64,000 bases of DNA from Bacteroidales bacterium (GTDB lineage Bacteria; Bacteroidota; Bacteroidia; Bacteroidales; Bacteroidaceae): NCBI GenBank assembly GCA_015060905.1, contig SUXQ01000003.1, forward strand, positions 124,001-188,000, given 5' to 3'. The notes below the pieces were generated by a model. That model made no database searches. It had not been told where the DNA came from and saw nothing but the letters and a program-made list of their open reading frames with translations. The stretch's first letter is position 1. Every line of letters begins with the position of its first letter. A program made the translations under genes and the position numbers. Shown piece by piece: positions 47,064-54,076 of this stretch.

Positions 47064-47726
47064 ATGATTATCGATTTTATCATAAGACTGTTTGTTGCAG
47101 CCATATTAGGCACAATCATAGGGCTCGAAAGAGAGTACCGCGCCAAAGAGGCCGGTTACCGCACGCACTTTTTAGTGTCATTGGGCAGCGCGCTTATAAT
47201 GATAGTGTCGCAGCATGGATTTTCCGAAATTCTGGGACAACCGGGAATAGGGCTCGACCCCTCGAGAATAGCTGCGCAGGTAGTTACAGGCATCGGCTTT
47301 ATCGGGGCAGGCACCATAATATTGAACAAACAAATTGTTCGCGGACTGACAACCGCTGCAGGAATATGGGCAACGTCGGGCATCGGGCTGTGCATAGGTG
47401 CGGGAATGTATACTCTGGGACTATCGGCTACCGCATTGACGCTTATAGGCTTTGAGCTTCTGAGCAGAATATTCAAAAACTTCGGACTAAGAAGTTTCTT
47501 TATTGAATTTTCCACAAGCAACAAAAATATGCTGAATGAAATTCCGGCAGCTTTCGACAAAAGGGATTTTATAATTGTCTCGTACCGGATGAACGAAAAG
47601 AACATCGGACAAGAGTGCTTCTACAATATCAGCATGGTGGTAAAGTCCAAAAAAAGAGAAGAAGAGTCCAATATTATCGCTTATCTTAATAGTTTCGAGG
47701 ATATTACCATTCATAGGATGGAATAA
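47064..47726 (+). CDS. MgtC/SapB family membrane protein
   Basis: 220 residues. Four to five N-terminal membrane segments carry the family core: GTIIGLEREYRAKEAGYRTH, IAAQVVTGIGFIGAGTIILN, and GLTTAAGIWATSGIGLCIGA. A soluble C-terminal domain (about 140-220) follows. MgtC-like proteins are linked to magnesium homeostasis or modulation of ATP synthase; which applies here is not visible. 15 bp after the preceding gene, possibly read through from it. Confidence 0.88.
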   Translation: MIIDFIIRLFVAAILGTIIGLEREYRAKEAGYRTHFLVSLGSALIMIVSQHGFSEILGQPGIGLDPSRIAAQVVTGIGFIGAGTIILNKQIVRGLTTAAGIWATSGIGLCIGAGMYTLGLSATALTLIGFELLSRIFKNFGLRSFFIEFSTSNKNMLNEIPAAFDKRDFIIVSYRMNEKNIGQECFYNISMVVKSKKREEESNIIAYLNSFEDITIHRME

Positions 47727-47747
47727 TTTTTTCAAGCACAGCTCTAC

Positions 47748-48175
47748 GTTGCACTACCCGGCACTTCCGGAATTTTATTCATACTTCAGCGGTTTGCACT
47801 ACTTTTAATAAGATAGGCGGCACCTCGGAAGAAAAAATAAATACAAATCATTGAACTTCAGCGGGTTGCACTACTTTCAATAAGATAAGCGGCACCTCGG
47901 AAGAAAAAATAAATATAAATCATTGAACTTCAGCGGTTTGCACTACTTTCAATAAGATAGGCGGCACCTCGGAAGAAAAAATAAATATAAATTTATTTTG
48001 TTCTTCGCTCGGTTTGCACTACTTTTAATAAGATAGGCGGCACCTCGGAAGAAAAAATAAATATAAATCATTGGACTTCAGCGGTTTGCACTACTTTTAA
48101 TAAGATAGGCGGCACCTCGGAAGAAAAAATAAATATAAATTTATTTTGTTCTTCGCTCGGTTTGCACTATCTTTG
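47748..48175. repeat. Tandem array of about 73-bp promoter-like units
   Basis: Unit starts at 47784, 47856, 47928, 48003, 48076 and 48151 (spacings 72, 72, 75, 73, 75), preceded by a diverged partial copy from 47748. Each unit contains GGTTTGCACTACTTT and CTCGGAAGAAAAA. Two linker forms occur: CATTGAACTTCAGCGG and TTATTTTGTTCTTCGCTCGG. The last copy breaks off into a working-looking promoter for tRNA-Leu. No ORF is credible; this explains the 486-bp gene-free stretch. Confidence 0.92.
48145..48175 (+). promoter_or_regulatory. Promoter of tRNA-Leu
   Basis: TTTG at 48145-48148, 19 bases, then TATCTTTG at 48168-48175: an exact Bacteroidota -33/-7 promoter, 37 bp before the tRNA. It is the terminal, intact copy of the tandem array. 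Confidence 0.8.
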
Positions 48176-48212
48176 CAAAAGATTAGCGTGTACGGCTTTC
48201 GACACAAAACTT

Positions 48213-48294
48213 GCGCCTGTGGCGAAATTGGTAGACGCGCCAGACTTAGGATCTGGTGTTTTGCGACGTGTAGGTTCGAGTCCTATCAGGCGCA
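48213..48294 (+). tRNA. tRNA-Leu (anticodon TAG)
   Basis: 82-nt class II-like cloverleaf: acceptor GCGCCTG pairs with CAGGCGC, discriminator A. The anticodon stem CCAGA/TCTGG encloses loop CTTAGGA with TAG, reading CUA/CUN leucine codons. A variable arm is present and the T-loop reads GGTTCGAGTCC. CCA is not encoded. Confidence 0.95.
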
Positions 48295-48304
48295 CGATGA
48301 GACA

Positions 48305-48352
48305 AAAGAGGAATTCTCAAAACAGGGAATTCCTCTTTCCTGTTTTGAGAAT
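48305..48352 (+). terminator. Two overlapping, mutually exclusive hairpins after tRNA-Leu
   Basis: Hairpin A: perfect 12 bp (48305-48316 with 48327-48338). Hairpin B: perfect 14 bp (48313-48326 with 48339-48352). The arms share 48313-48316, and the loop of each contains an arm of the other, so a pseudoknot or switch is possible. Probably terminates the tRNA transcript, though there is no long T-run. Confidence 0.65.
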
Positions 48353-48353
48353 C

Positions 48354-48431
48354 GACAATGCCGACAGCGGTTGGTCAAACGAAGTACGGGCGAAGCTCGT
48401 ACCGTTTGGGCCGCGATAAGGCGGCGTTGTC
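48354..48431. repeat. Cruciform unit 1
   Basis: Outer stem 10 bp (48354-48363 with 48422-48431). Inner stems GCGG/CCGC, CAAACG/CGTTTG and an 8-bp stem (48384-48391 with 48395-48402) closed by a GAA loop. Related to units 2 and 3 by the flanks TCGACAATGC and GTTGTCAATT. Confidence 0.75.
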
Positions 48432-48449
48432 AATTTAAAAGATATAATC

Positions 48450-48525
48450 GACAATACTTGCAGCAATAGGTCGCAGGATGCGTGGCGTAGTCACGCCCTG
48501 CGGGTTGCGGTTGGCAAGTGTTGTC
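48450..48525. repeat. Cruciform unit 2
   Basis: Outer stem 12 bp with one G.T (48450-48461 with 48514-48525). Inner 4-bp GCAA/TTGC stem, 6-bp stem (48472-48477 with 48497-48502) and GCGTG/CACGC. Shares almost all of its left 26 bases with unit 3. Confidence 0.75.
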
Positions 48526-48544
48526 AATTACGGCAAACAAAATC

Positions 48545-48604
48545 GACAATGCTTGCAGCAATAGGTCACGCACAGCACCGCAGAATGTGGTGCCTCGTGG
48601 GTTG
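48545..48604. repeat. Cruciform unit 3, truncated
   Basis: Left part nearly identical to unit 2 (from 48545). Inner stems CACG/CGTG and GCACC/GGTGC are present, but the right outer arm is missing. It overlaps the 3' end of the recombinase remnant. Confidence 0.65.
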
Positions 48605-48949
48605 GACTTCATTCCCATCAAAGGTTCGATAATTGTCTTTTTCCTTATCCCACAAAACTCCGTTCGGAAAGAGTAAATTTTGCAGTTTTTGGCAAATTTC
48701 AAGCGAACTATCACGCCACAAACGAGAGAGTTCAGTAACAAGCACCTTGTCGATGGCATTTGCCTCAACGTATTCTACCATGTTAAGTAGTTCTGTACGC
48801 TCTGCGTTTGCCTTTGCACCCGAAATTTTCTCTGCAAACACAGCCTCAACGCTCCAACCCTTACTATTGGCAAGTGCTGTCAGTTCGTTTACTTGTCTGT
48901 CGTACTCTTGTATGTTTGTCGAAACTCTTGCAAAAATTATTGTTTTCAT
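48566..48949 (-). pseudogene. Serine recombinase with internal deletion
   Basis: About 127 residues. The N-terminus is a serine-recombinase catalytic domain: MKTIIFARVSTNIQEYDRQ (catalytic Ser in ARVST), KISGAKANAERTELLNMVEY, VLVTELSRL. After ELSRL it diverges to QKLQNLLFPNGVLWDKEKDN, which resembles the extreme C-terminus of large serine recombinases. The middle (rest of the catalytic domain and DNA binding) is missing, so I read this as an in-frame deletion remnant. Its final codons run into cruciform unit 3. Start at 48949; an in-frame upstream extension is not family-like. Confidence 0.7.
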
Positions 48950-48964
48950 ATTCTTATTATATAT

Positions 48965-48980
48965 TTGTTTTATAAAACAA
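48965..48980. promoter_or_regulatory. Operator-like palindrome
   Basis: Perfect 16-bp palindrome TTGTTTTATAAAACAA between the divergent recombinase remnant and the XRE gene. A close relative (13 of 16 bases) lies at 49411-49426 on the other side of the XRE gene. Confidence 0.5.
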
Positions 48981-49109
48981 TTATTACAATGCAAATGTAC
49001 ATTTAAGAAAATTAAGAAACAAATTTTAATTAGCGAAAATCGCAAATATTTTGAAATATATTGTTATTTATGATAATTTTAGTATATTAGCACCCAAAAT
49101 AGGATATAC

Positions 49110-49394
49110 ATGGAAAAGATATTGGCAGAAAATGTAAAACGCCTTTGCAAGCAACAAGGCAAGCAACTTAAAGACCTTGCAAGCGACATGGATATTGACG
49201 CTTCAAGTCTAACGAGAGCGATGTATGGCAATGCAAGGTTAGATACCATTGAGAAAATGGCAGTCGCTTTGGGCGTTAGTGTAAAATCCCTTTTTGAACC
49301 TATGGGCGATGAGGCTGTAGAGGGGTTTATTAAAATTAGAGGAAAGATATATCAATTTTATAGTAGGAGCGAGTTGGAGAACCTACTTAAATAG
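49110..49394 (+). CDS. XRE-family helix-turn-helix regulator
   Basis: 94-residue DNA-binding protein. The HTH_3 domain spans about residues 5-62 (LAENVKRLCKQQGKQLKDLA, then SSLTRAMYGNARLDTIEKMA). A short beta tail (EGFIKIRGKIYQFYSRSELE) follows and may dimerise. Lies directly upstream of the Mrr-type gene with operator-like palindromes on both sides, so it is probably the control protein of that cassette. AT-rich like its neighbours. Confidence 0.88.
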   Translation: MEKILAENVKRLCKQQGKQLKDLASDMDIDASSLTRAMYGNARLDTIEKMAVALGVSVKSLFEPMGDEAVEGFIKIRGKIYQFYSRSELENLLK

Positions 49395-49402
49395 TTAAAA
49401 AA

Positions 49403-49436
49403 TTGATAATTTGTTTTATCAAAATAAGTAACTTTG
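49403..49436 (+). promoter_or_regulatory. Promoter and operator of the Mrr-EVE genes
   Basis: TAACTTTG at 49429-49436 matches the -7 box, 37 bp before the Mrr ATG. Just upstream, TTGATAA (49403-49409) and TTATCAA (49416-49422) form an inverted repeat, overlapped by TTGTTTTATCAAAATA, similar to the palindrome at 48965. A regulator bound here would cover the -33 region. Confidence 0.5.
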
Positions 49437-49472
49437 TTAACAAATAGAAATAATATTATAATATAGACTTGT

Positions 49473-50426
49473 ATGATACCAAAATATCAAGAATGTATGT
49501 TGCCTCTTTTACAATGCTTTAATGACAGACAAATTCATTCATTAAAGGAATGTACAGAAGTTCTTTCAAACAAATTTAACTTATCAGCAGATGAAAAGGC
49601 AGAACTTTTACCTAGTGGTAATCAGCCAATAATGTACAACAGGGTTGGTTGGGCAAAATTTTATTTAGAAAAAGCAGGACTCTTAAAAGGTGTGACAAGA
49701 GGTAAATATGTAATAACGGAGGATGGGCTAAGACTTCTATCAAAGAACCCGCAATTTATAAATAATGAAACGTTGTCTGCTTACAAACAATTTCGTTATT
49801 TTATAAACAATAGCGATGGAAATGCAGATGGTGCTATGAGAAGTATTAGCACTTCGGATGGCACTGAAAAGAATAAAGAAACGAAACTAAATAATAATGC
49901 AAAACAAATAAATTATAACGAACAGACTCCAGAAGAGATACTTGACACAACTTTTAAACAACTACAAGCAAACCTTGCTAATGAGGTGTTAGAAAAGGTT
50001 CTTGAACAATCTCCACAATTCTTTGAAAAATTAGTTGTTGAACTTCTTGTAAAAATGGGTTATGGAACAGGTAAAATTACAGGTCGTACAGGAGATGGTG
50101 GTATTGATGGTATTATAGACGAAGATAGACTTGGTTTGGATGTTATACATATTCAAGCTAAAAGATGGCAAATAGGGAACAATGTCGGAAGAAGAGAATT
50201 ACAACATTTTGTTGGCGCATTAGATGGAGAACATTGTAAAAAGGGAGTATTTATAACAACCTCATCATTTACACGAGAAGCATTAGAATACAATCCCGTA
50301 AATGTTAAACTTGCAAAGATTGATGGTAAGAAACTTGCCAACTTAATGATAGCATACAATGTGGGTGTTTCAACAAACGTAAGATATGAGATAAAGAAAA
50401 TTGACACAGACTACTTTGAGGAATAA
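49473..50426 (+). CDS. Mrr-type restriction endonuclease
   Basis: 317 residues, two domains. The N-terminal winged-helix Mrr_N part (about 1-100) includes YNRVGWAKFYLEKAGLLKG and YVITEDGLRLL. The C-terminal PD-(D/E)xK nuclease (about 170-300) has Glu190 (VVELLVKMGY), Asp212 (GDGGIDGII) and Gln228-Ala-Lys230 (IHIQAKRW), the Mrr_cat active site. No methyltransferase is adjacent, so a type IV, modification-dependent nuclease is likely. Three bases before the EVE-like gene, hence one operon. Confidence 0.9.
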   Translation: MIPKYQECMLPLLQCFNDRQIHSLKECTEVLSNKFNLSADEKAELLPSGNQPIMYNRVGWAKFYLEKAGLLKGVTRGKYVITEDGLRLLSKNPQFINNETLSAYKQFRYFINNSDGNADGAMRSISTSDGTEKNKETKLNNNAKQINYNEQTPEEILDTTFKQLQANLANEVLEKVLEQSPQFFEKLVVELLVKMGYGTGKITGRTGDGGIDGIIDEDRLGLDVIHIQAKRWQIGNNVGRRELQHFVGALDGEHCKKGVFITTSSFTREALEYNPVNVKLAKIDGKKLANLMIAYNVGVSTNVRYEIKKIDTDYFEE

Positions 50427-50429
50427 TAT

Positions 50430-50840
50430 ATGCAAAACTGGATTTTTATTTCAAGTACAAAATGTTTTAGAATGAATGATTGGCTAGATGCCAATGATTT
50501 TGTTGAGTACGTTCAACGCAATAATGTAAATGTAAATGACATTGTATATTTGTATACTACAGCACCTATTTGTCGTATTGAATATAAAATGATTGTTGAG
50601 CGTATCAATATTCCCTTAAACGAAATTGTAGATGACTCTGCTTATAACATAAGAACTAAAGAACAGAATGCTAAACGCATGATGAATGATAGATTTATAC
50701 GCTTAAGGTTGCTTAAAAAGGTTGACAATCCCAAATTGCACCTTGATTACTTACGTTCTATAGGATTAAAATCAAGTATGCAATCAAATTTGAAAGTATC
50801 TGGAGAATTATTAAAATATATTGAAGAACAAATGAAATAA
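50430..50840 (+). CDS. EVE/PUA-like domain protein
   Basis: 136 residues, function not certain. The N-terminal half (WIFISSTKCFRMNDWLDAND, then VNVNDIVYLYTTAPICRIEY) has the pattern of EVE domains and relatives: NW-type start, then DIVYLY and RIxYK strands. EVE/YTH/SRA folds read modified bases. The C-terminal half (RLRLLKKVDNPKLHLDYLRS) resembles the tail of similar stand-alone proteins. Co-transcription with an Mrr-type nuclease suggests it is the base-recognition partner. The fold call is from sequence pattern only. Confidence 0.6.
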   Translation: MQNWIFISSTKCFRMNDWLDANDFVEYVQRNNVNVNDIVYLYTTAPICRIEYKMIVERINIPLNEIVDDSAYNIRTKEQNAKRMMNDRFIRLRLLKKVDNPKLHLDYLRSIGLKSSMQSNLKVSGELLKYIEEQMK

Positions 50841-50875
50841 TCTTTTAGATTAAATCAATACAAATACACTTATGC

Positions 50876-50929
50876 ACAAAATACATCAAGGTGGGTTCTC
50901 GATAGAGAACCCACCTTGATGTATTTTGT
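50876..50929. terminator. Strong terminator closing the Mrr cassette
   Basis: Perfect 25-bp arms (50876-50900 with 50905-50929), GATA loop, then TCCTTTTAATTTT. Marks the 3' end of the AT-rich cassette. The following bases up to 51093 are AT-rich, with only a weak TATATTTC box before the xylanase gene. Confidence 0.9.
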
Positions 50930-51093
50930 CCTTTTAATTTTACCTTACATTAAAAAGATTTGTTGAAGCAGATAAAAGGTAATCATAAAAAACAAACCAT
51001 AATTCTGAATGCTTAGAAATCTTTCTACGCTTGCTTATTTCCACATTTTTGATTATCATTGCATTGTATATATTTCCGTAATATAAAACTACT

Positions 51094-52244
51094 ATGAAAA
51101 GATTATTTATAATAGCCACCCTGCTGCTGGCTGTTGCAAGCGTCAGTGCGCAAAAAGGCTCAACAAAGCCATTGAGAAAAGCGTTTGCCGACAAATTCCT
51201 TATAGGCGCGGCACTAAATGTGCATCAGGTAAGAAGCGAGGATAAAAGTTTGCACGACCTTATACGCCGAGAATTCAGTTCGGTTGTCGCCGAGAATTGT
51301 ATGAAGAGCGCCTCATTGCAACCACGCGAAGGAGTGTTCCGCTTCGACGATGCAGACAGGCTTGTGGCGCTCGCCCAAAAGAACAAACAAGCGGTCATCG
51401 GACACTGCTTAGTGTGGCACTCGCAAGCCCCGGATTGGTTTTTCACAGATAGCAACGGCAATGATGTCAGTCGCGAGGTGCTCATCGAACGTATGCGCAG
51501 CCACATTCACACAGTCGTGAAACATTTTAAAGGGAAGGTCAAAGGTTGGGACGTCGTAAACGAAGCTATCGAGTGGGACGGCAAGATGCGCGAGTCGAAA
51601 TTCTACAAAATCATAGGAGAGGAGTTTATCAGCCTTGCTTTTAAGTTTGCCCACGAGGCCGACCCTGACGTTGAGCTTTATTACAACGACTATGGAATGG
51701 ACTCGAGAATGAAGCGCGAGGCTGTTGTGCGCATGGTGCGCAAACTGAAATCCGAAGGGCGAAGAATAGATGCAATAGGCATGCAGTCGCACGTATCTTT
51801 CTCGACCCCGCTCGACGAGTATGAGCGCAGCATAGAGGCCTTTGCTGCCGAGGGTGTAAAAGTGATGATTACCGAGCTTGACCTGAGCGTGCTTCCATGG
51901 CCGCATGGAAATATGGGTGCAGCGGTGGAGAATAACTTCGAGTATCAAGAGAGGATGAACCCCTTCCGCAATGGACTTACAAAGGAAATGGAGCAACAGC
52001 AGACTGATTTTTTCTGCCGTCTGTTCGATATTTATCTGCGCCACGCGATGACATTACCCGAGTCACTTTCTGGGGTGTAAGCGACGGAGACTCGTGGAAG
52101 AATAATTGGCCGGTGCGCGGACGCACAGATTATCCGCTGGCTTTCGACCGCGAATATCGTGCAAAGCCTTTTGTGCATGAGATTATAAAAATGGCAAAAA
52201 GATATAAAAAAGGGGCCTTTCGAAAAGCACAAAAAAACAAGTGA
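51094..52244 (+). pseudogene. Endo-1,4-beta-xylanase (GH10), frameshifted near the 3' end
   Basis: Exported GH10 xylanase (signal peptide 1-19). Acid/base Glu157 (DVVNEAIEW) and nucleophile Glu261 (MITELDLS) are intact. The frame stops at 52080 after an unrelated LPESLSGV end. Shifting frame at about 52045 restores [16 protein letters not shown] and continues to a stop at 52242-52244, giving about 382 residues, normal for GH10. One base is missing around CACGCGATG. The lost segment holds the conserved TFWG tryptophan, so the truncated enzyme is probably inactive unless this is a sequencing error. Confidence 0.9.
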
Positions 52245-52258
52245 TTCTATATTATTAT

Positions 52259-52299
52259 AAATTATGCGGGCAGAGGAATATTCCCTGCCCGCATAATTT
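52259..52299. terminator. Bidirectional terminator
   Basis: Perfect 15-bp stem (52259-52273 with 52285-52299), 11-nt loop, with T-rich flanks on both strands, between the convergent xylanase and glucosaminidase genes. Confidence 0.85.
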
Positions 52300-52317
52300 G
52301 TTTTTTTAGCCACGATA

Positions 52318-53265
52318 TTACCTGAGCCTTACAACGTCGCCCACCTTAAGCGGTGAGTAACTTTCGTACTCGGGATTCATCTTGTAGATGTTTTTAAGGC
52401 GCACGCCGTACTTTTGAGAGATTGAGTAGAGGCTTTCGCCGTTGCCTGTTGTGTGGAAACGGTGCTCTTTGCCGGCTTTGCTGTGTTTCTTTTCGAGGTA
52501 TATAATATCCCCGGCTTTTATATTATATTCTTTATATAAGTCGTTGTATTTTATCAGTTTGCGACGCGAAATTCCAAATTCACTCGAAAGTGTTTCAAAG
52601 GTGTCACCGTTATTTGCCACTACATACAGCAGACCACTCGACAGATAGAGAGGACGGCTGCCCGATAAAGTGCTGCCGGAGCTGTTTCCGAGCGCAGACG
52701 AAATATCACCCTTGGAGTATTTGTCATACTCGTATAGTTTGTAGCGCTCTATAAGGTTTATAAGCTTCTGGGGGTAGGCGGGGTCTTCGGCGTATCCGGC
52801 CTTTTTCAGTCCGCGTGCCCAGCCTTTGTAGTCGGTGGTGCTGAGCTTGAACAGGGAGGCGTATCGGGGACGTAAGAGAAATTGCGAGTGGTCTTCGTAC
52901 GACTCGCGTGCGCTGTTGTAGACGCGGAACTCGCACATTCGTCCGTTGTCCATAGTGGTTGTTGTACGACCTTGCCAATTATTGTTAGCTTTAATGCCGA
53001 AGTGGTTGTTCGACTTTTGTGTAAGGGTGCTTTTCCCTGCACCCGACTCGAGGAGACCTTGTGCAAGGGTGATGCTTGCCGGTATTTTGTGACGGTGCAT
53101 CTGCTCTACAGCGATGGGGTAGTATGTGAGAATGTATGCCTCGTAGGAATCGGATGCGCCTGTTACTGTAGCGTTTGTTTTTTGTGATGTTTGTTTGGTG
53201 GTGCTGCACGATGCGAATGTGAATGCCGCAACTACGGCTACCGCAATGATAAGAATGTGTTTCAT
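52318..53265 (-). CDS. Glucosaminidase with two LysM domains, lipoprotein
   Basis: Peptidoglycan hydrolase of the envelope. Signal peptide with lipobox FASC (Cys20). Mannosyl-glycoprotein/glucosaminidase domain about residues 45-185, with the catalytic-glutamate block ASITLAQGLLESGAGKSTLT and NNHFGIKANNNWQGR. Two LysM modules bind glycan: about 213-256 (NNGDTFETLSSEFGI) and 268-315 (GNGESLYSISQKYGV). 315 residues. Cleaves GlcNAc linkages; probable role in cell-wall remodelling. Confidence 0.93.
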   Translation of the reverse strand: MKHILIIAVAVVAAFTFASCSTTKQTSQKTNATVTGASDSYEAYILTYYPIAVEQMHRHKIPASITLAQGLLESGAGKSTLTQKSNNHFGIKANNNWQGRTTTTMDNGRMCEFRVYNSARESYEDHSQFLLRPRYASLFKLSTTDYKGWARGLKKAGYAEDPAYPQKLINLIERYKLYEYDKYSKGDISSALGNSSGSTLSGSRPLYLSSGLLYVVANNGDTFETLSSEFGISRRKLIKYNDLYKEYNIKAGDIIYLEKKHSKAGKEHRFHTTGNGESLYSISQKYGVRLKNIYKMNPEYESYSPLKVGDVVRLR

Positions 53266-53334
53266 GATGTAATTATATTTTCCAAGTTACAAATTAAACG
53301 AATTAATTGGTTTTATGCAAGTGTTTATTTTATC

Positions 53335-53486
53335 TTTATATAAGATATACTGCACTCGCTTTGAAAAATATTCAAGCACGCTTGATATTTCTCGCTCGTT
53401 TGTTATTGTCTTTATATAAGACATACTGCACTCGCTTTGAAAAATATTGAAGCAAGCTTCATATTTCTCGCTCGTTTGTTATTGTC
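53335..53486. repeat. Two tandem 76-bp units with covarying hairpins
   Basis: Units 53335-53410 and 53411-53486 differ at only four positions. Each contains a hairpin (53366-53390 and 53442-53466) and ends CTCGCTCGTTTGTTATTGTC. Two of the four differences (53373/53384 versus 53449/53460) swap a C-G pair for a G-C pair, so the stem is kept. Occupies most of the 328-bp gap between the divergent glucosaminidase and cdd genes. Confidence 0.92.
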
Positions 53487-53515
53487 TTTGAGATAAAACC
53501 TCGAAAATAGGATGT

Positions 53516-53558
53516 GGCTCGGAAGAAAAATAAGTTCACTTGTTTTTTCTTCCGAGCC
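53516..53558. repeat. Inverted repeat upstream of cdd
   Basis: Perfect 15-bp arms (53516-53530 and 53544-53558), 13-nt loop. The left arm contains CTCGGAAGAAAAA, the element repeated in the array before tRNA-Leu. No gene reads into it from either side, so a terminator is unlikely; it lies just upstream of the cdd -7 box. Confidence 0.8.
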
Positions 53559-53564
53559 TTTCAC

Positions 53565-53572
53565 TATCTTTG
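53565..53572 (+). promoter_or_regulatory. Promoter -7 box of cdd
   Basis: CACTATCTTTG contains TATCTTTG, an exact -7 box, 21 bp before the cdd ATG; the same CACTATCTTTG occurs in the tRNA-Leu promoter. CTTG at 53539-53542 could serve as -33. Confidence 0.65.
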
Positions 53573-53593
53573 TAGTGTTAGAAGCTGAAAATT

Positions 53594-54076
53594 ATGAAAG
53601 AGATTATTCTAAGCACTGTTGTTAAGGTCTGCTCTTACGAAGAGCTGTCGCCGGCCGACAGGCAACTGACCGATGCTGCCCGCGAAGCTGCAAAAAAGAG
53701 TTACGCCCCCTATTCGCTTTTCAACGTGGGAGCAGCCGTACGCCTAGATGGCGGGGAGATTGTCTGCGGTAGTAATCAAGAGAATGCAGCCTACCCCTCG
53801 GGGCTATGCGCCGAGCGCACCACTCTCTTTTGGGCAGGAGCACAGCATCCCGACAAGGCTGTCGAGGCAATAGCCATCGCCGCACGCGACAAAGATGGAG
53901 AGATTGAAAAGCCAATATCCCCCTGCGGAGCCTGCCGACAGGTAATGCTCGAGACGGAAATGCGATTCGACCGTCCCATGCGCATCATCCTCTACGGCTC
54001 GCGCGAGTGCTACATAATAAAAGGTGGCACAAAGGAACTTATGCCCCTCTCCTTTAGTTCGGATTTTTTAAAATAG
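53594..54076 (+). CDS. cdd: Cytidine deaminase
   Basis: Deaminates cytidine and deoxycytidine in pyrimidine salvage. Zinc site: Cys72-Ala-Glu74 (GLCAERTTLFWAG) and Cys111/Cys114 (PCGACRQ), the tetrameric T-CDA pattern with three cysteines and the catalytic Glu74. 160 residues, typical for Bacteroidota. Five bases before the phosphatase gene, hence probably one operon. Confidence 0.96.
   Translation: MKEIILSTVVKVCSYEELSPADRQLTDAAREAAKKSYAPYSLFNVGAAVRLDGGEIVCGSNQENAAYPSGLCAERTTLFWAGAQHPDKAVEAIAIAARDKDGEIEKPISPCGACRQVMLETEMRFDRPMRIILYGSRECYIIKGGTKELMPLSFSSDFLK

Follow-up and report, generated by a model that had tools for sequence, protein, structure and literature searches.

Dispersed palindromes and promoter-bearing MITEs are already known from the REP, Correia and BrickBuilt elements. 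REP/REPIN sequences (TnpA-REP, RAYT) are, like the repeat described here, short dispersed palindromes that occur in many copies and often in arrays. Integron attC sites are folded single strands with an unpaired base, a design that the present units would share. According to the passages of PMC8266576 cited here, the processing of E. coli REP requires a bulge in the stem, the unpaired T17 of IS608 is held by the transposase, and the ends of IS200/IS605 elements (IS608) likewise present a folded single strand with an unpaired base. In the cited passages of PMC10969869, Correia elements are small, non-autonomous, located upstream of genes and a source of promoters, and one copy in Neisseria is inserted immediately downstream of the mtrCDE promoter. 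They differ in their host, and these passages mention neither tandem hairpin units nor a rule of insertion behind the -7 box. BrickBuilt is an intergenic tandem MITE of Porphyromonas gingivalis with reported promoter activity. It shares with the present array the occurrence in Bacteroidales, the intergenic position and the tandem units, but the excerpts of PMC4596501 used here give it 23-bp units, IS5-type terminal inverted repeats and a range of P. gingivalis and P. gulae, whereas in the array studied here hairpin units of about 76 bp follow -7 boxes. Inspection of these units by eye showed no IS5-type termini, and the open-access literature searched, exact sequence strings included, yielded no account of this repeat.

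The window is the whole stretch of DNA analysed, 64,000 nucleotides from a Bacteroidales bacterium. The tandem units of the preliminary description are two of three copies located before a cytidine deaminase gene (cdd), the third of which is diverged (Table 1). They are members of a dispersed family of hairpin repeats of about 75 bases, and the family is probably mobile. All three units are oriented toward cdd. Their reported position between divergent promoters holds as far as the flanking genes are concerned, which do diverge (glucosaminidase on the minus strand, cytidine deaminase on the plus strand).

Read toward the gene, a unit runs from a box TAnnTTTG through a hairpin H2, the motif GCACTCG, a main hairpin H1 and CTCGTTTG to another box. 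TAnnTTTG at -7 with TTTG near -33 is the Bacteroides sigma factor consensus (PMC7366714, relevant passages). GCACTCG and CTCGTTTG are the fixed flanks of H1 in the target subfamily. H2 is an inverted repeat built from the box and the bases that follow it (e.g., TTTGAGG-TAAA-CCTCGAA), and the loop of H1 usually has two bases. Unit length is about 70–85 bp across the family.

Table 1. Features of the cdd array and related elements in the window
Feature	Position	Strand	Evidence or remark
Candidate -33 element TTGG, native cdd promoter	53307..53310	+	20 nt 5' of native -7 box; sequence
Native -7 box TATCTTTA	53331..53338	+	Units begin directly 3' of box
H2 hairpin, unit 1: TATCTT-TATAT-AAGATA	53331..53347	+	Folding; compensated change relative to unit 2
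Unit 1, 76 bp	53339..53414	+	From after native box to end of next box; covariance-model match G000:C15:177340-177417, E 1.4e-19
H1 hairpin, unit 1: AAATAT[T]CAAGC-AC-GCTTGATATTT	53366..53390	+	Extra T in left arm; folding, covariation
Inner box TGTCTTTA, off consensus	53407..53414	+	Sequence
H2 hairpin, unit 2: TGTCTT-TATAT-AAGACA	53407..53423	+	Fold of 53395-53425, z -5.81; 0 of 200 shuffles equally stable
Unit 2, 76 bp	53415..53490	+	Covariance-model match G000:C15:177416-177493, E 7.1e-20
H1 hairpin, unit 2: AAATAT[T]GAAGC-AA-GCTTCATATTT	53442..53466	+	Folding, covariation
Inner box TGTCTTTG, off consensus	53483..53490	+	Sequence
H2, unit 3: TTTGAG-ATAAAAC-CTCGAA	53487..53505	+	Sequence, folding
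Unit 3, diverged subfamily	53491..53572	+	Long GGCTCGG...CCGAGCC hairpin at 53516-53558
Last -7 box TATCTTTG, closest to gene	53565..53572	+	Sequence
Cytidine deaminase gene cdd	53594..54076	+	Pfam PF00383, 9.5e-14; begins 21 bases past unit 3 box
Glucosaminidase with LysM, divergent neighbour	52318..53265	-	Pfam PF01832, 1.4e-37
Second array, same design, different hairpin sequence	47783-48188	+	Before tRNA-Leu 48213-48295; R1 match 48100-48178, E 2.3e-5

As previously claimed, the sequences 53335-53410 and 53411-53486 differ at exactly four positions (53346/53422 T/C, 53373/53449 C/G, 53379/53455 C/A, and 53384/53460 G/C), and the swap from C-G to G-C keeps the pairing of 53373 with 53384 and of 53449 with 53460. 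Tandem Repeats Finder places the array at 53333-53489 with a period of 76. A register shifted five bases to the left (start 53330) reveals a fifth difference, A53332 to G53408. The change from A53332-T53346 to G53408-C53422 constitutes a second compensated pair, which is located in H2. The five differences between units 1 and 2 consist of two compensated base pairs (four positions) and one loop base. The isolated 27-nt H1 hairpins are of modest stability (DNA -3.7 kcal/mol, z -2.90 and -1.47); support for the H1 structure rests on covariation, not on folding energy. The fold of unit 3 (53482-53575) has a z score of -4.42 as DNA and -5.74 as RNA, and its subfamily is present elsewhere in the source genome and in relatives.

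The array before tRNA-Leu contains about five units of a related subfamily. Its inner boxes read TACTTTT or TACTTTC and only the last is TATCTTTG. At 50870-50936, unrelated microRNA models give sub-threshold matches on both strands, as a strong palindrome would; this segment is perhaps another hairpin repeat or a terminator.

In the source genome, a 2.54-Mb assembly of 31 contigs that is 87.5% complete, BLAST with both units found 52 places at E ≤ 10. The preliminary description had proposed a covariance-model search, and such a search of this genome (model R1) yielded at least 121 matches at E ≤ 1 and at least 107 at E ≤ 0.001, numbers that are lower bounds because 150 of the 2472 candidates were scored. 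Matches at E ≤ 1e-4 occur in 42 of 151 sampled genomes of the same taxonomic family, covering 16 of 30 genera, and the nine same-genus genomes listed, the source included, have at least 20 matches each. A pattern scan of named genomes found at least 114 stretches with units. Among 80 listed stretches, 78 belong to Bacteroidaceae or to a Bacteroidales bacterium, one to Muribaculaceae and one to Paludibacteraceae, and many come from the ruminant gut. Two other genera, represented by G105 and G185, possess the same frame with different hairpins, and the start codon is visibly next in several cases. A blastn search of 53300-53600 against plasmids returned no match.

Model matches lie less than 500 bases from a contig end on source-genome contigs C16, C22, C26, C27, C29 and C30, and runs of N are found inside two source-genome arrays (L004/L005 and L007). 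The repeats seem to break or blur the source assembly, leaving unit numbers uncertain. At L066, L091, L100, L116, L130, L146, L148 and L151, the units are contained in a longer common stretch with both flanks similar; one named genome includes at least L066, L091, L100 and L116 among its contigs. This longer stretch may be another repeated element, with a unit inside it. The flanks of L011 (G000:C18 about 98500) and L014 (G000:C13 about 44400) hold ACGTCAGTTCGATATAAA or its complement, which resembles the ISPg3/MITE239 termini of P. gingivalis as given in Table 2 of PMC4596501. An IS5-type MITE may adjoin these two arrays.

The units are present at some orthologous promoters and absent from others. 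At cdd, they occur at 3 of 30 loci (the source, G028 with one unit, and G038 with one diverged unit). Among the 27 cdd loci without units, each of the seven promoters that were read has one native box, and two loci have another gene directly upstream. Five of 30 ssb loci have units (each orthologue set comprises 30 of the 44 matches for its gene), and copy number also differs, with one model hit at the ssb promoter in L030, three in L054 and five in L063. Six tatC loci of at least 90% identity are divided into three with arrays and three without an array at that place. The empty site L117 reads TATCTTTG followed by other sequence, whereas the filled site L136 reads TATCTTTG-unit-TATCTTTG; besides the cdd, ssb and tatC promoters, this is the one pair compared base by base. 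Presence and absence at orthologous sites, as in MITEs, is therefore found at cdd, ssb, tatC and the L117/L136 pair.

We interpret the units, with a probability of about 0.6, as a non-autonomous dispersed hairpin repeat (REP- or MITE-like) that inserts behind -7 boxes and then multiplies in tandem. A repeat of about 70–85 bp would insert directly 3' of TAnnTTTG in Bacteroidales promoters, before genes, and its copies would subsequently multiply in tandem. The box at the end of each copy would usually match the native box, so that the promoter retains its own box and gains a further one toward the gene. Paired changes in the stems would be retained because a folded strand, most likely DNA, is acted on by a mobilising enzyme or by the replication machinery. 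An enzyme would presumably confer mobility, and DNA rather than RNA would be the folded form. Insertion may be near-neutral for the gene, because it leaves the native promoter with its box intact and adds a box closer to the gene. No movement of units was seen, and recombination is enough for tandem growth and loss, which counts against mobility.

The within-genome covariation first noted at this locus is real and strong, both in 29 source-genome units and in 146 distinct units of relatives. The swapped pair is CG in 10 of the 29 units, GC in 10, AU in 5, UG in 1, unpaired in 2 and a gap in 1; independent variation of the two positions in other genomic copies, named in the preliminary description as evidence against it, was not found. 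In a free MAFFT alignment of the 29 units, 97.1% of stem cells are paired versus 89.8% in shuffles, and for two of the five measures of covariation the values stay within the shuffled range, namely double-change pairs (4 versus 2.8; 75 of 500 shuffles) and further pair types (9 versus 9.1). In the 146 units from named genomes, 8 of 11 H1 stem pairs have changed on both sides, 97.1% of cells are paired, and 165 cells are compensated versus 49.6 in shuffles; none of 500 shuffles was as high in pairing or in double-change pairs. This alignment contains the best 150 of 190 matches, taken from 100 of the at least 114 stretches, and was fitted to the model, which favours pairing. Sliding the partner column by 1–3 positions lowers pairing in the 146 rows to at most 50.9%. 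The stem pair adjoining the bulge described below is unpaired in 23 of 146 rows.

The combinations of two variable stem pairs in 192 parsed units are GC/TA in 57, CG/CG in 48, GC/CG in 44 and CG/TA in 3 (5 of 197 units were unparsed and some others misread). Since all four combinations exist, which is impossible from a single ancestral double change, the double changes have recurred. These counts, like those of H2, placement, spacing, flanking TTG and box match below, drop L001, L161, L024, L004, L020, L021, L013 and L017 as duplicates; L001 and L161 are both copies of the target cdd locus, so the target is excluded from them.

Paired changes of this kind may also arise from replication template switching (quasi-palindrome correction), in which the polymerase copies one arm onto the other without selection on structure and the tandem grows by slippage between boxes. 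The mechanism is known to create and repair stems and to yield double changes, according to the passages cited from PMC8794818. Consistent with it, adjacent units already show joint changes in the two arms. The sequence of the H2 stem varies from locus to locus, and inside one array as well (L105), yet the stem pairs: all three variable stem pairs are complementary in 53 of 88 distinct long-form H2s, against a null of 9.0 and a maximum of 19 in 5000 shuffles. Template switching probably contributes to the paired changes, particularly in H2, and is a serious rival for explaining them.

However, homogenisation of the two arms should erase a bulge in the left arm of H1, and such a bulge recurs in the family. 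A best-pairing search with one bulge allowed assigns 220 of 268 hairpins a left bulge, 32 a right bulge and 16 none. Among 176 distinct hairpins, one extra left-arm base fits best in 135, a right-arm base in 25 and none in 16. T accounts for 97 of the left extra bases and C for 27; in 100 hairpins five pairs separate the left extra base from the loop. The method itself does not create the asymmetry, because reverse complements show it on the opposite side (134 right, 23 left) and hairpins with shuffled letters are balanced (47 left, 48 right, 81 none). The G105 hairpins (AAAGT[T]CAAGC) have a different stem and a left bulge in 10 of 12, always T. The G185 hairpins, with other stems again, have it on the left in 8 of 14 (T in 4, A in 4) and on the right in 6. 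The bulge is partly inherited, because related hairpins have sequence in common. A stem irregularity or an unpaired T is used by REP- and IS608-type proteins, as described in the cited part of PMC8266576. Template switching also leaves the placement behind -7 boxes and the presence or absence at orthologous promoters unexplained. It is a possible account of the repeat as a whole, with the odds somewhat against it.

The innermost pair of H1, which closes the two-base loop, is paired in all 145 rows with letters (CG 88, UA 56, UG 1). RNA hairpins need loops of at least three bases, whereas DNA tolerates two. Since RNA should not form such loops, the preservation of this pair points to DNA as the folded form or to a mutational process acting on DNA. 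The same pair argues against a promoter or leader device, in which the hairpins would act as RNA in a 5' leader transcribed from the native promoter and the number of units would tune the gene.

The placement of the arrays is in favour of such a device. Among 36 source-genome arrays, the next gene start is on the same strand in 28 and on the opposite strand in none, while 7 arrays lie inside short ORFs and 1 has no next gene; the median distance from array to gene start in the 28 is 38.5 nt. Among 133 arrays of named genomes, 83 face a gene on the same strand, 18 are opposite, 15 are without a gene and 17 are inside short ORFs. Both sets of counts come from a crude gene caller, and part of the 18 may be false ORFs. 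One array also precedes tRNA-Leu. The native cdd promoter reads TTGG, 20 nt, TATCTTTA, and in the native flanks of 58 other first units TTG is commonest at spacer 20 (21%); many native flanks therefore look like real promoters. With this -33 signal kept, transcripts would run through the units. Within units, TTG is rare at spacer 20 (1%), yet reaches 24% at spacer 22.

Other observations are at odds with a leader function. Units are absent from most orthologous promoters examined (27 of 30 cdd and 25 of 30 ssb loci), and in the target array the inner boxes deviate from the consensus. Nothing but tRNA reached the Rfam cut-off in the 64-kb window, and ten loci with arrays gave no match at cut-off. 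A loose search of 47700-53700 produced, beyond tRNA, sub-threshold matches only, including unit 3 against the plastid family RF04348 (35.4 bits, cut-off 52.7). A role as RNA leader is possible but less supported, and we consider it unlikely.

In the typical case, a unit starts immediately 3' of a native TAnnTTTG box at -7 and closes with another box. Of the 197 parsed units, 165 have a box upstream and 183 have one downstream, partly by construction, as a box was required; this does not apply to the spacing and the NN match. The 197 units are what remains of 320 model hits after removal of 100 without the core pattern and 23 without the right flank, and the box tests were performed on 152 distinct units. 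The distance from box to core is 28 nt in 91 of the 152. In 45 of 56 non-redundant first units the far box has the same variable NN as the native box, compared with a mean of 22.0 and a maximum of 33 in 5000 shuffles. These 56 are 65 units minus one repeated flank class and near-identical flanks; before their removal, the match was 52 of 65 (null 22.4). The bases at -1 to -3 before the box match less well (25, 22 and 25 of 56 versus 16.4, 15.9 and 18.3 expected). Recombination between boxes, as an alternative to target duplication, could account for the box match. Conservation of the copied boxes is not strict: L268 combines a degraded unit box with an intact native box, and the inner boxes of the target array read TGTCTTT.

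Two source-genome loci about 2.8 kb apart on C14, L033 (1494-1566) and L034 (1418-1491), have duplicated flanks, of which the downstream ones are 96% identical. Both loci have TACATTTG as native box; the unit of L033 also has TACATTTG, and that of L034 has TATATTTG.

Boxes on both sides of most units would also permit spread without an enzyme, with homologous recombination or microhomology at the common box copying box-unit-box cassettes between promoters. The cdd unit of G028 is flanked by 16 identical bp on both sides, and in 4 of 49 adjacent unit pairs (L054, L102, L104 and L105) the outer stem pair has different alleles that are both complementary; both observations fit this mechanism. However, an identity of eight bases is short for RecA, and the units keep their regular spacing from box to core. 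Spread of this kind is an improbable explanation.

The covariation was initially attributed to selection on structure or to hairpin inversion. Selection is the likelier of the two, and template switching could also keep the pairing. Hairpin inversion is ruled out, as inverting complementary arms returns the same arms and cannot convert C-G to G-C.

A mobilising enzyme was sought for the repeat through Y1 transposases and integron integrases and was not found. The Y1 transposase PF01797 has no match in the source genome (87.5% complete). Of 44 genus genomes, 5 have it, whereas it was not found in the other 39, many of which are incomplete. When five Y1 loci were checked for units, only L191 matched the model at E < 1e-8, with two matches about 1.35 kb from Y1. 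The integron integrase TIGR02249 gave seven matches, none above the 265-bit cut-off, and 14 control genomes also gave none.

The dispersed hairpin repeat thus differs from each of the known systems. Like REP, the units are dispersed imperfect palindromes with a stem irregularity. However, REP systems have a Y1 TnpA-REP, whereas no Y1 transposase was found in the source genome, 87.5% complete, and the present units are tied to -7 boxes in one orientation. No GTAG-type tag at the hairpin foot is visible by eye in an alignment of 29 units, and we know of no REP counterpart of H2 and the box copy. In contrast to IS200/IS605, the units are without element genes. Moreover, insertion of the IS608 type would not yield a right-end box matching the target, as the present units tend to show. 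In contrast to integron attC arrays, no integrase exceeds the cut-off here. In the open-access literature searched, no regular insertion behind a -7 box, no matching far box and no bulged stems of fixed shape and free sequence were found. A more specific mechanism can be envisaged, in which a gene-less hairpin with free stem sequence is recognised in the form of a folded single strand of DNA, through its paired shape and a single bulged base. An enzyme would insert it into the sigma -7 box, which would be duplicated, the host promoter surviving every insertion. In this full form the mechanism is doubtful.

If the units are indeed a repeat that inserts behind -7 boxes, core promoters of many gut Bacteroidales would gain and lose insertions at one exact site, immediately behind the -7 box, with no obvious harm. 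Such insertions would help explain breaks in assemblies and would complicate promoter annotation. The family would also offer naturally occurring compensatory changes on which structural selection can be tested against template switching, because the recurrent bulge separates the two.
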